A stretch of DNA of 41,023 nucleotides, taken from assembly GCA_017962495.1 (NCBI GenBank), contig JAGCVH010000060.1, forward strand, positions 1-41,023. The letters are read 5' to 3'. Positions within the stretch are counted from its first letter, which is position 1. Each line of letters starts with the position of its first letter. This DNA comes from Bacteroidaceae bacterium (lineage in GTDB: Bacteria > Bacteroidota > Bacteroidia > Bacteroidales > Bacteroidaceae). Both the position numbers and the translations under genes were made by a program. Under the pieces are notes generated by a model, which was not told the DNA's origin, did no database searches, and saw nothing but the letters and a program-made list of their open reading frames with translations. Below, in pieces: positions 21,487-28,229 of this stretch.

Positions 21487-21518
21487 CAAAGATATTGTTT
21501 TTCTCCGACATAGGCAAG
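21487..21518 (-). promoter_or_regulatory. lplA: Promoter of lplA
   Basis: On the minus strand CTTG (21518-21515), 20 nt, TATCTTTG (21494-21487). The -7 box is exact and the -33 box is partial. The leader would be about 15-20 nt. Confidence 0.6.
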
Positions 21519-21595
21519 AAAAGCATCCTTTCTTTACCTTAATATATTTAGACGAACGCAAAAATTCTCGTCTTTGGTGAGACGTTAAACTTCGC

Positions 21596-21777
21596 GAATG
21601 TGACGAATGTGACAATGTGACCGTGACATTCGTTTTTTTTACGTTTTTGAAGGTGGTTTTAGATTGAAAAATAATTTAGTGAATAATTAATAAATTATAA
21701 TGTTTTCGTCTCAGGTTTCCTGTTTTAAAAGTGCAAAAATGAAATGTCACGGTCACATTGTCACATTGGTCACATTC
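21596..21777. repeat. Near-perfect 35-bp inverted repeat of 8-9-nt AATGTGAC units
   Basis: The left arm (21596-21630) is GAATGTGAC-GAATGTGAC-AATGTGAC-CGTGACATT. The right arm (21743-21777) is its reverse complement with about two mismatches. The spacer of about 112 nt is AT-rich. Within each arm the unit is repeated directly three to four times. No open frame lies between the arms. The same layout with a related unit is at 8031-8181. It sits between lplA and a divergent gene, upstream of both promoters. The rest of 21464-22048 shows no gene. Confidence 0.9.
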
Positions 21778-21989
21778 ATTTTTGCTCTTTTAAAAAGCGT
21801 ATAGGCTTGATTGTTAATGATATAGAGTGATTCGTTTACTTGCATTAATGTGACTTTTATGCTTCCCAGCCATCAAAATAACGACTTTTTTCGAGTTTCT
21901 TACTCGCAGATTCATCTGTTTCGCGTCCGGAATTAGCCTCTCGAACTAACGTTTTTTTGTTGTGTCCGAAGGAAATAATCCCCATTTTA

Positions 21990-22021
21990 TTTGCTATTTT
22001 CCTCGATTTTCACTATTTTTG
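21990..22021 (+). promoter_or_regulatory. Promoter of the BspA-like protein gene
   Basis: TTTG (21990-21993), 20 nt, TATTTTTG (22014-22021). Both boxes are exact. The leader to the ATG at 22049 would be about 20 nt. Confidence 0.75.
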
Positions 22022-22048
22022 TAGCAGAAACTCAAAAACCTTACGACT

Positions 22049-25012
22049 ATGAAACACTTTAGGCAAATTCTTACTATCCTTTGCCTGCTCCTGGCAGGTT
22101 GGACAAGCACGGTAAACGGACAGATCGTTCAGTCGATGGGTACGACCCAAGATGATCAGGCCATTTATAACTTGTATTTTTCTTATTACGACAATGGCTA
22201 TGGTGGACATTGGATGGAAAGTTACTATGCCACCATCCAGAAAGTTACGCCTATTATAGGTTACGCCACCATCCCAAAGACGGTTACCTATGGCAACCAT
22301 ACCTATTCCGTTCTCGGTTTTGGCGCGCCAGGTACTGTATACTCTGAAGTGCAAAACGTGGGCACGCTCACTTTCAAGGGTGATGTCACCATGTGGAAAG
22401 CCCCTGTTAGCTTTACTGCGGGGATGACAGGCTTCTCAAACCTTATATTTGAAGGGCAAAGCTATCCCTTTGACGGAGATTACTCGCAGTATTTCACGAA
22501 TTCCGTGGGTTGGGTAGATGTTTATCTGGCAGATAAGACGGAAAGCCAGATTACAGAGTTGAAGAATAAGGCACCTTGGAATCAATTCCACTCTGTTAAC
22601 TATAGACCCGTCAAGCAAACCTTGACGATGAATAAGACGTTCAGCACGGTAGATCCTGAAGCTCATGTGGCATTGTACAGCCTTGGCGATTACGAAACCT
22701 TCTCAGATGCCGACTACAATCTAGACAGACTGACGCTCTTGGAGATGACGAGCCCGTGGCAGTATGAGGTAAACAAGTTCCAGCGATATCTGGCGGTAGC
22801 TCGCTATAATAACAACAAAGTAACGCCTCGGTTGTTCTGCGATGGGCTGGAATACCTAATGACTCCCCACTATAACATTGCGTATTGCCAATTTACGGTT
22901 CGGGACGACATGGTCCTGGATGTCAGTTTCCCGTCAATTGCTACATGGGAGGGAGTATTGAAAAACCAAACCTATGGTATGGTATTCGTGACCGAACTTG
23001 GCGACAAAACCAGTTTTGCCGATAATGGGATGCAGAACGTCATTCCTTACATGTACTCCACCACCAACGGGCAGGTAACCGATGGCCTGTTCGCGGGTTG
23101 CAACTATTCGACAGTATATGTCGATAACGACCCCAGCAAAACACCACACCTGAAGCGCAACGGCGTGGAAGTGGCGCTGCAACACATTGTGCGTGGCATT
23201 GTTAGCTATGCCTATTATAATGAAATCAACGTGCAGGAGAATGTCACCTACGAATGGTATTCTGTGCCAGTGGAAACGGCTGAGAGTAATCCCATCGTGA
23301 AAGTGATAAGAACAGGCGGAGGCGACGTGTCGCTCACTGGTATGTGGGATTGGGACTCTCAGGATGAAACTTGGTATAATACAACGGAAGTGAATTGTAC
23401 TGCTGCTACCACCGACCTTGTCATTCCTCTGCCCACAATGTCTCCAGGAGGCGATGGTGAGTACTGGGGATTTGAATTGAATGTGAGACCTCGGCCTGGC
23501 GAAACGGTGAGGAGTTTCATGATTGGCACTAATGGATATGATTCAGACTCAGGGCAATCAGTCCTCACAATGGAAGAAGCTACGATGACAAAGAACGCCG
23601 ATGGTAGCTATACGTTTATCGTCGACGCATTAGGGGATTATATGGCATGGAGCATAGGCAACTACGTCGTGTCTGTCGATATGGGACCAGAGTCTGTTGA
23701 TAGAGCTACTTTGGACTTTGTGCGAATGGGAGGTGAGAGTAGGGTGCAATTTTATCGCGAAGATTGTGAGATTGACGGATGGTTTGACATCAATGAGGGA
23801 AGCACAACACACGATCTGAAACTCTATTCTCCTGCTGAGGCATATGAATGTGGAACGGGTATGAACATTATGCAAGAGTTGATAATATCTCCTATAGCAG
23901 GCGAGACTATATATGTATATTGCGACGGAGAGGATATTTCCTCTGATTATAGTGTAGATAATAGAAATAATAGAATATATGAGTTGGAACGTGCCGACCA
24001 CACTTATACCATCCTCATTGACCAACTTGAGAACATCGCCTTTGCCGACGCAGCCGTAAAGGCCATCTGTGTGGCAAACTGGGATGAGAACCGCGACGGC
24101 GAACTCTCAATGACAGAAGCGGCAGCAGTAACCGACATAGGCGTAGTGTTTAAAGGCAATACTGAGATAACCTCGTTCGACGAGTTTAAGTATTTTACGG
24201 GTGTAACAAAGATTGGTAAAGAAGCCTTCCTTAATGCCACAAGCCTGATAAGCATCGTGCTTCCACAAAGTGTAAAGAACATTCAAGGTGGATGGACCTT
24301 TTCCGGATGCTCCTCGCTGGAGAATGTTGTTTTGCCAGATAATTTGTCAATAATTGATTCATATACCTTCGAACAAACAGCTATCAAGTTGATAAAGCTT
24401 CCGGAAAAAGGCAGTGTGGTCTTGGGTTATGGTGCGTTCCAAGGAACTCCCCTTCGTTCACTATACATTCCTGCCAATTTGACGGGAACCATTTATAGGG
24501 GTATAGTGTCGAAATGTCAAGACCTTGCCAACATCGCTGTCGATGAAGGCAATAAGTACTACGACTCCCGCGAAGGTTGCAACGCCATCATCAAGAAATC
24601 GACTAACACGCTCATTGCCGGTTGTAAAAACACTGTGATACCCAATAGTGTGAAGGCGCTTGGAGACCACGCTTTCTACTATGCTCCAGTGAAGAAATTG
24701 GAGTTGCCGGCGGGATTGGAGAACATGGGAGAAGGCAGTATTTTCCGTTGCGACAGCCTCACCTCGATAGTGGCTCACATGCCAGAGCCGTTCGCGATTT
24801 CTACTGCCAACATCGGGCTGATCAATGACTGCGTACTTACAGTTCCCTATGGCAAACGTCAGGCTTACATCGATGCTGGTTGGACGGAGAGTATCTTCAA
24901 GGGCGGAGTGGTGGAAGACAAGTCGCAGTTCGATGTTAACCGCGACGGTTCCGTCTCCATTGCTGACGTAACTACGCTTGTGAATGTGATTCTCGGTAAA
25001 CCGATACAGTAA
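22049..25012 (+). CDS. Secreted BspA-like leucine-rich repeat protein with dockerin-like end
   Basis: A 987-residue protein with a signal peptide (MKHFRQILTILCLLLAGWTS…VNG-Q). Residues about 30-650 are a large region of unknown fold. An EF-hand-like loop 'WDENRDGELSMTEAA' follows at about 676. At about 709-917 there are BspA/LRR_5-type repeats ('ITSFDEFKYFTGVTKIGKEA', 'LENVVLPDNLSIIDSYTF', 'LRSLYIPANLTG'). The C-terminus (about 962-984) is 'DVNRDGSVSIADVTTLVNVI', a single dockerin-like calcium-binding repeat common in Prevotella surface proteins. BspA-like proteins act in adhesion or surface recognition. No enzyme motif was seen. It heads a locus of three secreted proteins but has its own promoter. 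Confidence 0.88.
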   Translation: MKHFRQILTILCLLLAGWTSTVNGQIVQSMGTTQDDQAIYNLYFSYYDNGYGGHWMESYYATIQKVTPIIGYATIPKTVTYGNHTYSVLGFGAPGTVYSEVQNVGTLTFKGDVTMWKAPVSFTAGMTGFSNLIFEGQSYPFDGDYSQYFTNSVGWVDVYLADKTESQITELKNKAPWNQFHSVNYRPVKQTLTMNKTFSTVDPEAHVALYSLGDYETFSDADYNLDRLTLLEMTSPWQYEVNKFQRYLAVARYNNNKVTPRLFCDGLEYLMTPHYNIAYCQFTVRDDMVLDVSFPSIATWEGVLKNQTYGMVFVTELGDKTSFADNGMQNVIPYMYSTTNGQVTDGLFAGCNYSTVYVDNDPSKTPHLKRNGVEVALQHIVRGIVSYAYYNEINVQENVTYEWYSVPVETAESNPIVKVIRTGGGDVSLTGMWDWDSQDETWYNTTEVNCTAATTDLVIPLPTMSPGGDGEYWGFELNVRPRPGETVRSFMIGTNGYDSDSGQSVLTMEEATMTKNADGSYTFIVDALGDYMAWSIGNYVVSVDMGPESVDRATLDFVRMGGESRVQFYREDCEIDGWFDINEGSTTHDLKLYSPAEAYECGTGMNIMQELIISPIAGETIYVYCDGEDISSDYSVDNRNNRIYELERADHTYTILIDQLENIAFADAAVKAICVANWDENRDGELSMTEAAAVTDIGVVFKGNTEITSFDEFKYFTGVTKIGKEAFLNATSLISIVLPQSVKNIQGGWTFSGCSSLENVVLPDNLSIIDSYTFEQTAIKLIKLPEKGSVVLGYGAFQGTPLRSLYIPANLTGTIYRGIVSKCQDLANIAVDEGNKYYDSREGCNAIIKKSTNTLIAGCKNTVIPNSVKALGDHAFYYAPVKKLELPAGLENMGEGSIFRCDSLTSIVAHMPEPFAISTANIGLINDCVLTVPYGKRQAYIDAGWTESIFKGGVVEDKSQFDVNRDGSVSIADVTTLVNVILGKPIQ

Positions 25013-25100
25013 GGCGGATGAGGTTTGCCATTTTGTTCCAATCTATTGCCATATTGTAAGGAAATGCGATGCGACGTGCGGTTTATTCAAAAAGAATGTT

Positions 25101-25108
25101 TATATTTG
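25101..25108 (+). promoter_or_regulatory. -7 promoter box for the two-gene unit at 25216-26634
   Basis: TATATTTG fits TAnnTTTG; the -33 region is weak. It would give a leader of about 100 nt before the ATG at 25216. The leader has no recognised riboswitch. Confidence 0.45.
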
Positions 25109-25215
25109 TAACGAGGAAAAGTATGATTTAAAGCGTAATCTTCGCAAGAAGATGGCGAAAATCGGACTTGAGAGAAAAAGAGATACATTACTAACCCATT
25201 AAAAACATTAAGCCT

Positions 25216-25647
25216 ATGCGAAATCGTTACTTAACGTTGCTCCTGCTCGTTATCATGCTTGTAGCAGGGCAGAGCACTTGGGCAGGAATGGCCCTCGTAG
25301 TGCATCAAAAGTCGGGAGGCACGGTAGAGTTTGCATTCAGCAAGAAACCTGTTTTGACCTACTCCGGAGGCAATGTCGTCATTACGTCAACTGAAACCTC
25401 GGTGGAGTATCCCCTTTCCGACATTCAGAAGTTTACCTTCAAGGAGGAAACGGATGGTGTGGAGCGCATCATCGCGCCTGCGAACCAGGTTCCACAGCCT
25501 ACATACATCTATAGTGTAGGCGGTATCCTCATGCGTACCTTGCAACCCAGGGAGGACGGCACAACGCCAGCAACCCTCGAGGGCTTGCCTACAGGTACGT
25601 ACATTATCAAGAACGGAACAACAAAGTACAAAATCATTAAAAAGTAA
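25216..25647 (+). CDS. Small secreted protein with Prevotella-type C-terminal tail
   Basis: A 143-residue protein with a signal peptide (MRNRYLTLLLLVIMLVAGQS…WAG). Residues about 28-75 are a small beta-rich segment ('GGTVEFAFSKKPVLTYSGG … YPLSDIQKFTF') of the type found at the start of many Prevotella exported proteins. The end 'TYIYSVGGILMRTL … LPTGTYIIKNGTTKYKIIKK' resembles a type A-like C-terminal sorting tail. No catalytic motif is present. The next gene starts 6 nt after its stop, so the two are almost certainly co-transcribed; the partner is the EF-Tu-domain protein. Function unknown. Confidence 0.8.
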   Translation: MRNRYLTLLLLVIMLVAGQSTWAGMALVVHQKSGGTVEFAFSKKPVLTYSGGNVVITSTETSVEYPLSDIQKFTFKEETDGVERIIAPANQVPQPTYIYSVGGILMRTLQPREDGTTPATLEGLPTGTYIIKNGTTKYKIIKK

Positions 25648-25653
25648 GAAACC

Positions 25654-26634
25654 ATGAAGAAGATATTTTTACTGGGCTTTGTTGCCCTTTGTGCAATGAC
25701 GATGAATGCACAGATAATGAAGGTTCAATCCGGTGGCGCTGTTATATTCGAAAAGAATGTGGATGCTATTGAGCAGGTGACCTTTGCCGATGCCAATCCC
25801 AGCGAGGTGAGTGTTGCCTTCAAGAACAACTTCATAACTATGGCGAAAGATGCCGAGTTGGCAATTGCCGACATCCTGGTCACGAACAATGTAGCTGTTG
25901 CCGATGTTACGCTCACATCCAGCAACACGGGCATTATAAACATTGCGGATGGCAAACTTGTAGCTAAGAACTATGGAAGTGCAATCATCACTGCAACTGC
26001 TAATAATGCAATTGCTCCTGCCAGACTGTTCGTTTCTGTGGAAACCGGGTTCATGTATATTGACGACGTGTTTACTATAACGGGTAGAGGCACTGTCGTA
26101 ACCGGCACCATCCTAACGGGTAAGTTCAAGATGGCTGACAATGTTATCATAGGTAAGGTAAGTGATGATGCTGAAAACATTAATACGACTCTGGCCGGTA
26201 TCGAAGTGTTCCGTAAGACTCTTGAAGAAGCCTCGGCAGGTGAGAACGTTGGCCTACTGCTTCGTAATGTCGAGAAAACCGCTGTTGAACGTGGAGATGT
26301 TATCATGTCACCAGAGAATACAGCTGTCGTTCAGACCAAAAAGATTCGTGCCTCGGTTTATGTCCTAACAAAAGAAGAAGGTGGTCGCCATGCTCCGTTC
26401 GTTGTAAACTATAGTCCACAATTGTCTGTAGGTGGAAAGGACATGACATGTGTTGTAACCGACCTGGGTACGCAGGATGGTGCAGCTGCTGAATTGGTAA
26501 TGCCAGGTACAACGTGCGAGAACATGGTGATTGAAATTCCGGGTGCTGTCACACCTTTCGTGTACAGAGGTGAGGAGTGCCTCCTTCGCGAGGGTGGCAG
26601 AATCGTTGCAAAGGTAACAATTACAGGTTTCTGA
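25654..26634 (+). CDS. Secreted protein with Ig-like domain and EF-Tu domains 2 and 3 (no GTPase)
   Basis: A 326-residue protein. Residues 1-19 are a signal peptide (MKKIFLLGFVALCAMTMNA). Residues about 20-46 resemble the start of the preceding gene's product ('MKVQSGGAVIFEKNVDAIEQ'). Residues about 50-128 look like a Big_2/Ig-like fold ('LTSSNTGIINIADGKLVAKN', then 'GSAIITATA'). Residues about 132-223 match elongation factor Tu domain 2: 'DDVFTITGRGTVVTGTILTG', 'GIEVFRKTLEEASAGENVGL', 'LLRNVEKTAVERGDVI'. Residues about 229-326 match EF-Tu domain 3: 'ASVYVLTKEEGGRHAPF', 'ELVMPGTTCENMVIEI', 'CLLREGGRIVAKVTI'. The GTP-binding domain 1, with its P-loop, is absent. The frame is intact and the translation signals look normal. 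The similarity is strong enough to be certain by eye. The function outside the cytoplasm is unknown; binding to host matrix or glycans, as suggested for surface EF-Tu, is only a guess. Confidence 0.93.
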   Translation: MKKIFLLGFVALCAMTMNAQIMKVQSGGAVIFEKNVDAIEQVTFADANPSEVSVAFKNNFITMAKDAELAIADILVTNNVAVADVTLTSSNTGIINIADGKLVAKNYGSAIITATANNAIAPARLFVSVETGFMYIDDVFTITGRGTVVTGTILTGKFKMADNVIIGKVSDDAENINTTLAGIEVFRKTLEEASAGENVGLLLRNVEKTAVERGDVIMSPENTAVVQTKKIRASVYVLTKEEGGRHAPFVVNYSPQLSVGGKDMTCVVTDLGTQDGAAAELVMPGTTCENMVIEIPGAVTPFVYRGEECLLREGGRIVAKVTITGF

Positions 26635-26673
26635 TGCGTAGTCCTCTCTTAGGAGAGAATCAGTAGTGACAAT

Positions 26674-26710
26674 GCGCCCGCAGGCTCGATAAAGCTTGCG
26701 GGCGCTATAT
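26674..26710. terminator. Terminator between the EF-Tu-domain gene and the sulfatase gene
   Basis: A 13-nt stem with one G-T pair: GCGCCCGCAGGCT (26674-26686) with AGCTTGCGGGCGC (26693-26705), followed by TATATTTATT. It lies between convergent genes and could act in both directions. Confidence 0.82.
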
Positions 26711-26744
26711 TTATTGTCAGATCCTAACCTGAGCCGTTCAATCT

Positions 26745-28229
26745 TTAAATCCCTTTCTCCTTTTCCAATGCCTCTTGCATCTTACGTGCCAGACGCTTGT
26801 GCTTGCCGATGACGTTTTGCGTTTGCATATGGTCGTCGCGAAGGTTGAAGAGAGAAAGCGTGTCGACAATACCCATCTCATTGCCGGTGGTGTTTCGCTT
26901 GGCACCTTTGTAGGCAGGCAGGAGGGCGTAGTCGCGAGTGCGATAAGCCAGTCGGCCTACGGCTTCCACCACCATGCCTTTGCGTCCTCGCTTCGACTTG
27001 CCAAGGAAGGCATTGAGGTGGTTCTCCGAGTCGAGGCCTTGGGGCAAGGGTTGGCGAAGCATGTGGGCAAAGGAGGCAAGGAGGTCTTGCTGAGCCACGA
27101 GGGCATCGGAAACAACAGGGCGAATGTGGCCCTTCCAATAGACAAAGAACGGCACGCGAGTGCCTGCCTCAAAGAGACTGTACTTCCCACCTCGATAGCC
27201 TCCATTCATATCGTGCTGGCCTATGAGTTCGCGAGCCTGATCGTTGTATCCGTCGTCGAGTACAGGACCATTGTCGCTGGTGAAGATGACGATGGTGTTC
27301 TCCAGCAATCCCTTTTCTTCCAGCTTGCTAATGACCTGACCCACACACCAGTCGGCTTCGATGATGACATCGCCTCGTGGTCCCATGGTGGTTGAACCTA
27401 CAAACTTGCTATTGGGAATGCGGGGTACGTGGGGTTCGTGAAGTCCGTAGTAGAGGAAGAAGGGTTGGTTGGCAGGTTGGTTGTCGATGAACGAAAAAAC
27501 GCGGTCGAGCAAGTCCTGCGCCATGTTCTCATCGTTCCATAGGGCAGAACGTCCACCTCGCATGAATCCGATGCGAGGGATGCCATTGATGACGGTATTG
27601 TTGTGTCCGTGCGACCAAGTGACTTTCGTCATGAGTTCGGGATTGCTGAGTGCTGTGGGCAAGCCTTCGAAGTTCTTCTCGTAACTGACCTCGATGGGGT
27701 CGGAGGGGTCGAGGCCAACGACATTGCCGTTCTCGACATAGACGCAAGGCACACGGTCCACCGTAGCAGGAAGGATGCATGAATAGTCGAAGCCTATCTC
27801 GTTGGGACCTGGCTTGATGGGATGATTCCAATCGACGTGTCCTTGTCCGATGCCTAAATGCCATTTGCCTACTGCACCTGTGCGATAGCCTGCACGCTGG
27901 AACATGCGTGCAATGGTGAACTGGTCCTCGCCAATGATTAGTGGCGCATCGCCCTGCAGGATGTTGGTCTTGCGACGCCAAGGATAAACGCCTGTGAGCA
28001 ATCCGTAACGGCTGGGCGTGGAAGTGGCGGAAGAAGCATGTCCGTTGGTGAGGCAAACTCCGCCTCGTGCCAATCGGTCGATATTGGGCGTCTGTATGGT
28101 CTGACTTCCATACGCACTGACATCACCATAACCGAGGTCGTCGGCAATGATGATTAAGACATTGGGACGCTCTTGTGCGCCTGCCAGCGAAGGCAGGGCG
28201 GCAAGGAGGGAAAAGAGGTGTCTTTTCAT
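26745..28229 (-). CDS. Secreted sulfatase, S1 family, serine type
   Basis: A 494-residue arylsulfatase-type enzyme that removes sulfate esters from glycans or other substrates. From the ATG at 28229 it has a signal peptide (MKRHLFSLLAALPSLAGA). The metal-binding 'IIIADDLGYGDVSAYG' (Asp30, Asp31) follows. The formylglycine site is Ser70-Thr-Pro-Ser-Arg74 in 'ATSTPSRYGLLTG', so maturation needs an anaerobic sulfatase-maturating enzyme (anSME), not encoded here. Further motifs are 'AVGKWHLG' and 'VIFTSDNGPV'. The substrate cannot be told from sequence. The frame extends to 28271, but the signal peptide fixes the start. It follows the MscS gene on the same strand. Confidence 0.93.
   Translation of the reverse strand: MKRHLFSLLAALPSLAGAQERPNVLIIIADDLGYGDVSAYGSQTIQTPNIDRLARGGVCLTNGHASSATSTPSRYGLLTGVYPWRRKTNILQGDAPLIIGEDQFTIARMFQRAGYRTGAVGKWHLGIGQGHVDWNHPIKPGPNEIGFDYSCILPATVDRVPCVYVENGNVVGLDPSDPIEVSYEKNFEGLPTALSNPELMTKVTWSHGHNNTVINGIPRIGFMRGGRSALWNDENMAQDLLDRVFSFIDNQPANQPFFLYYGLHEPHVPRIPNSKFVGSTTMGPRGDVIIEADWCVGQVISKLEEKGLLENTIVIFTSDNGPVLDDGYNDQARELIGQHDMNGGYRGGKYSLFEAGTRVPFFVYWKGHIRPVVSDALVAQQDLLASFAHMLRQPLPQGLDSENHLNAFLGKSKRGRKGMVVEAVGRLAYRTRDYALLPAYKGAKRNTTGNEMGIVDTLSLFNLRDDHMQTQNVIGKHKRLARKMQEALEKEKGI

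Follow-up and report, generated by a model that had tools for sequence, protein, structure and literature searches.

A predicted exported protein of Bacteroidales that carries the two β-barrels of EF-Tu behind an Ig-like domain

What might a bacterium gain from the β-barrels of its elongation factor outside the cytoplasm? Few bacterial proteins are as conserved as EF-Tu, which has often been reported from the surface of bacteria, with leakage from broken cells as a standing doubt. A gene that exports only EF-Tu domains 2 and 3 (D2-D3) and is kept by selection alongside an ordinary tuf would provide natural evidence for an extracellular use of the barrels, and its product would give a clean reagent for finding their extracellular binding partners. 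Such a question is raised by a gene at 25654..26634 (+ strand) of the window, the whole 41,023-nucleotide stretch of a Bacteroidaceae contig (JAGCVH010000060.1) analysed here, in which a piece of the protein-making machinery has seemingly been converted into a protein dedicated to export, shared by a few related Bacteroidales. The reading that we favour, at a probability of roughly 45%, is a dedicated, adhesin-like exported binding protein with a D2-D3 head derived from a captured EF-Tu.

The open reading frame starts at an ATG, has no internal stop and encodes 326 amino acids, in line with the intact frame described in the initial annotation, and the five EF-Tu motifs quoted there are all in the translation. 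Domain 2 (residues 133-222, 26050..26319, +), delimited by the EF-Tu alignment, matches PF03144 (GTP_EFTU_D2) over residues 146-217 (E 2e-13, 51.0 bits, cut-off 30.3), and domain 3 (residues 223-326, 26320..26631, +), delimited with the help of loop lengths, matches PF03143 (GTP_EFTU_D3) over residues 225-324 (E 5.3e-15, 56.1 bits, cut-off 27). The best PDB-sequence match of residues 133-319 in a phmmer search is likewise an EF-Tu, that of Synechococcus (6.6e-41). Together the two domains occupy 194 residues, one fewer than initially counted. The NCBIfam model of EF-Tu (TIGR00485) is matched at its positions 207-389 only (151.8 bits, cut-off 522.4), and no GTPase domain was found by Pfam in the 326-residue protein at E ≤ 1, which bears out the claim that domain 1 is missing. 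Because the GTP site is lost with domain 1, the protein is not to be regarded as an elongation factor, and with the GTPase engine gone it would have no action of that kind.

In place of domain 1, again as first proposed, the N-terminus reads by eye as a Sec signal peptide (residues 1-19, 25654..25710, +), cut after MNA and before Q20; A19 and Q20 are invariant in the four family members described below. This peptide points to export, and the protein is presumably placed at the surface; no T9SS type A sorting domain (NCBIfam TIGR04183) was found on it at E ≤ 1. The following module, 'SGG...VTF' (residues 20-47, 25711..25794, +), is delimited by its identity in the closest relative and by low model confidence (pLDDT <50 for residues 16-46 of the AlphaFold model), and inspection by eye shows similar motifs in further exported proteins among the loci listed. 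The next domain (residues 48-132, 25795..26049, +) had been called Big_2-like, a label with indirect support: PF02368 gives no match in this region at E ≤ 1, but a profile of the four members, aligned by hhalign to three Big_2 domains from this genus, reaches a probability of 94.7% (E 6e-8), and AlphaFold models a β-rich domain with a pLDDT of about 80-89. The single PHROGs match of this Ig-like part is a Hoc-like decoration protein (E 0.032). A toxin role was set aside, no toxin domain being among the Pfam or NCBIfam matches.

The distribution of the gene is narrow. Its own genome (G000) holds two matches, the EF-Tu-like gene itself and, on another contig, a tuf whose frame runs off the contig end and which is 47% identical to it over D2-D3. 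Across the genus, 84 of 139 genomes match at E ≤ 0.001, and in four the match extends over residues 1-326: G000, G103 (81% identity), G087 (38%) and G027 (39%). The other matches cover D2-D3, wholly or partly, or the N-terminal part. As the remaining 55 genomes lack any match, even to tuf, many assemblies must miss regions, and four of 139 is a lower bound. All three relatives pass the cut-off of PF03143, and G087 stays below that of PF03144 (22.3 bits). A four-member profile, with up to five candidates scored per genome, found full-length matches within the genus only (G000, G103 and G027) among 399 genomes from 30 genera of the family, in G000 only among 393 genomes of the order, and in G000 only, at E ≤ 1e-60, among 395 genomes of the phylum. 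Over the 16,396 bases compared, the contig of G103 does not differ from CADCHQ010000023.1, which belongs to the uncultured Bacteroidales MAG RUG14659 (RUG presumably standing for rumen genome). A scan of genome contigs with two short N-terminal patterns returned one locus, on CADCHQ010000023.1; a viral contig scan with two short patterns found no relative. Carriage by plasmids or phages was rejected, in that none of the 85 matching plasmid records and none of the 17 matching phage records covers 80% of the full protein; the matches listed (20 of the 85 and all 17) fall inside residues 122-324. A plasmid tuf of Planktothrix (L159) encodes a product that is, by eye, closer to the E. coli than to the Synechococcus EF-Tu and has a short D3 loop.

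All four carrier genomes are draft assemblies, 80-94% complete, so a tuf fragment, a chimeric assembly or a decaying pseudogene might be suspected. Such an artefact is scarcely credible given that the frame is open in four separate assemblies, that G027 and G087 have the gene at a common locus, that the four sequences form one clade, and that dN/dS is about 0.2. The occurrence in four genomes, the single clade and the purifying selection also speak against a single-strain recombination product, and nothing that the initial annotation had named as counter-evidence was found. In trees built with 39 EF-Tus (28 of 82 tuf records, at <93% identity, and all but one of 12 named EF-Tus, a motif filter having removed the plasmid tuf of Planktothrix), the D2-D3 parts of the four members form one group with support of 100/100. 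Moreover, a D3 loop has 24 residues in all four members, against 19 in all 82 Bacteroidales tuf records (68 distinct sequences). The identity of 47% to the own tuf, the distance of the clade from EF-Tu and the loop difference led us to discard a recent tuf fragment or recombination product, as the initial annotation had also done for a fragment.

The deeper origin of the barrels is less sharply defined. A tree with only the two close members, G000 and G103, places them inside Bacteroidales EF-Tu with support of 99/95 (the bootstrap being rough according to the program) and a branch length of 4.0 changes per site. In line with a cyanobacterial origin, the best PDB matches are Synechococcus EF-Tu, its loop likewise has 24 residues, and the AU test does not reject a grouping with this sequence (p 0.275); for Bacteroidales EF-Tu as one clade without the two members, it gives p 0.271. 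In the four-member tree, the branch is too long for placement. These results are better read as the old capture of a tuf from Bacteroidales, which they do not prove.

Selection on the gene is best followed in the close pair, G000 and G103. Its dS (0.53) lies within the range of eight flanking genes of the window (0.42-0.96), its dN is 0.114 against 0.009-0.086 in those genes, and its dN/dS is 0.215 overall and 0.224 in D2-D3. These values therefore fit descent over the same period as the rest of the two genomes, with purifying selection that is loose yet real. The pair does not differ at residues 1-47, and divergence is greatest in D2-D3 (75% identity). In G027 and G087, the gene has tex on one side and a DUF3127 gene on the other (names from Pfam) and is flanked by five genes with 77-97% identity; its dS is 2.45, near saturation, its dN/dS 0.28, and the flanking dS varies from 0.29 to 2.23. 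In view of this near-saturated dS and of the variable flanking dS, recombination may have brought distant alleles into the locus. Across the EF-Tu-like gene at these loci (L089 and L090), dS rises from 0.29-0.42 (a radA-like gene and tex) to 1.3-2.2 (the DUF3127, coaBC-like and DUF4835 genes), as if recombination were frequent there. Thirty DUF3127 loci, drawn from 131 genomes with a match, were read: the gene is present in two; in ten others, tex is near DUF3127 and the gene is absent; the last 18 contain different genes there or reach a contig end.

In the window, the gene has a close neighbour, which, like the patchiness and fast evolution of the family, is absent from the initial annotation. 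Six bases upstream lies an open reading frame for an exported protein of 143 residues (25216..25647, +), the C-terminus of which bears a weak likeness to the T9SS type A sorting domain (TIGR04183, 19.1 bits, cut-off 23). The two genes are also together in G103, and we infer that they form an operon. They follow a conserved leader (25022..25215, +; similarity to G103 starts at 25022) with TTTATATTTG, which resembles a Bacteroidota -7 box; a sigma-70 scan found sites no commoner than in shuffled sequences (2 against 2.8). Downstream, a stem-loop scan detected a terminator-like structure of 13 pairs (26674..26705, +), and terminator-like sites in the region number four against 1.8 expected. The family of the partner (L095-L122) consists of small exported proteins present in 113 of the 139 genus genomes, and some of its genes adjoin peptidases or Ig-like proteins. 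A comparable tandem pair is found at L088 (2907-4245), where a 129-residue exported protein is followed by one with a signal peptide, a Big_2 domain and an unnamed C-terminal part.

The gene pair and an LRR gene make up a 5.2-kb stretch (21518..26754) that is missing at the corresponding site of G103, where 178 unaligned bases separate a lipoyl ligase gene from a sulfatase gene; the location of the pair has changed between the two genomes, a further point that the initial annotation does not make. The LRR gene (22049-25012) encodes an exported BspA-type protein with a C-terminal dockerin-like repeat (21.4 bits, Pfam cut-off 22.9). Near the start of the stretch is an imperfect inverted repeat (21596-21777; 51-nucleotide arms, 86% complementary). 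Mobile-element ends were considered for this insert and rejected: the inverted repeat has one copy only in its own genome, and repeats near the ends of the insert are weak.

What the barrels do was approached through the columns that are uniform in EF-Tu, 79 in number at ≥97% uniformity in the 39 EF-Tus. Were D2-D3 reused as a stable β scaffold, inert or structural and with no ligand common across the family, fast divergence would be in keeping with it, and indeed the G027 and G087 proteins are only 37% identical at their common locus, 15 of the 79 columns are changed in all four members (one of the 15, F210, lies outside the aligned part), and the gene occurs in so few genomes of the genus. 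We nevertheless hold this reading to be unlikely, for 32 of the columns are unchanged in all four although D2-D3 identities, the close pair aside, are 38-48%, and the stretch KEEGGRHTP is nearly fixed. Lysine and arginine are fewer in the members (14-19) than in EF-Tu (19-27), and net charge is within the EF-Tu range; heparin-type binding is therefore not favoured.

In another proposal, which we find rather improbable, a core translation component would have become an exported receptor with its own gene: D2-D3 would keep the pocket for the 3′ end of charged tRNA and use it outside the cytoplasm, whether for tRNA binding or as a decoy for effectors or drugs aimed at EF-Tu. In the first case, the aminoacyl/CCA pocket and the T-stem face would be kept and extracellular or periplasmic tRNA would be bound. 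At 13 sites that we take to be tRNA contacts, the EF-Tu residue is kept in a mean of 3.38 of the four members against 2.53 over the 79 columns (one-sided permutation, p 0.015, or 0.007 without glycine and proline, the list having been trimmed after the states were seen), and F218, E259, R318, H319, Q329 and G379 are kept in all four. The signal fades when only sites kept in four of four are counted (7 of 13 against 25 of 66, Fisher p 0.36) or when a wider list of 23 sites is used (p 0.20). No member retains R230 or R333, and domain 1, which provides much of the tRNA grip of EF-Tu, is missing, so a binder of tRNA ends or RNA seems improbable.

In the second case, an exported mimic would intercept toxins or antibiotics that have their docking site on D2-D3, and so keep them from the genuine EF-Tu. 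G257 and G275, which we assume to be GE2270-type sites, are kept in three and four of the four members, respectively, and a patchy, fast-evolving gene would suit such a role. PDB entry 5i4q is among the fold matches of the protein. In one report, a contact-inhibition toxin is described as docking on domain 2 of EF-Tu, and its immunity protein on domains 2 and 3 (PMC9086364). The same report, however, has the toxins that use EF-Tu attacking tRNA inside the target cell (PMC9086364), hence in the cytoplasm. VipB, of the T6SS sheath family, was found in none of the four carriers by a search in which E. coli was the sole matching control, a result that says nothing of attackers, and no immunity-type gene caught our attention nearby. 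A decoy appears slightly less probable still.

Our preference for an adhesin-like protein rests on its architecture, its patchy occurrence, its rapid divergence and what has been reported of surface EF-Tu in other bacteria. According to this model, two EF-Tu barrels, probably from Bacteroidales, would have been captured at the boundary of domains 1 and 2, set on an Ig-like stalk and exported by Sec to the cell envelope or surface, with a small exported partner encoded alongside in two species. The D2-D3 block would form a rigid head that binds, most likely in the manner of an adhesin, to a glycan or a host, plant or microbial surface; that it binds a ligand, and which one, is our guess.

Compared with canonical EF-Tu, the product of tuf, the protein agrees in the fold and motifs of D2 and D3 and in their order, and the C-terminal ends are close; it differs in the absence of the GTPase domain, in the signal peptide and Ig-like domain, in the loss of the two arginines, and in the longer D3 loop relative to Bacteroidales, a length shared with Synechococcus. 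The exported Big_2 proteins of the genus (for example L088 3331-4245, Big_2 49.6 bits) also begin with a signal peptide, the N-terminal module and an Ig-like domain and continue with other C-terminal parts, whereas here that part is EF-Tu D2-D3. The papers listed in searches of an open-access library, outside which most subscription papers fall, deal with surface EF-Tu and its fragments and with no exported EF-Tu D2-D3 gene, in agreement with the early remark that this is not a described family. Two reports place EF-Tu barrels outside the cytoplasm, possibly binding to surfaces, in other bacteria (PMC5593925, PMC6822514), and in one of them the extracellular protein is the cytosolic tuf product, devoid of a signal sequence (PMC6822514). 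Our protein resembles this moonlighting EF-Tu in having the barrels outside the cytoplasm, a location that is here predicted, and departs from it in being a separate gene, with tuf on another contig, a signal peptide read by eye and D2-D3 only. EF-Tu parts outside the cell are thus already known; what would be new is that they appear hard-wired as a gene of their own, by which a module of a translation factor joins the rapidly changing set of proteins that Bacteroidales export.
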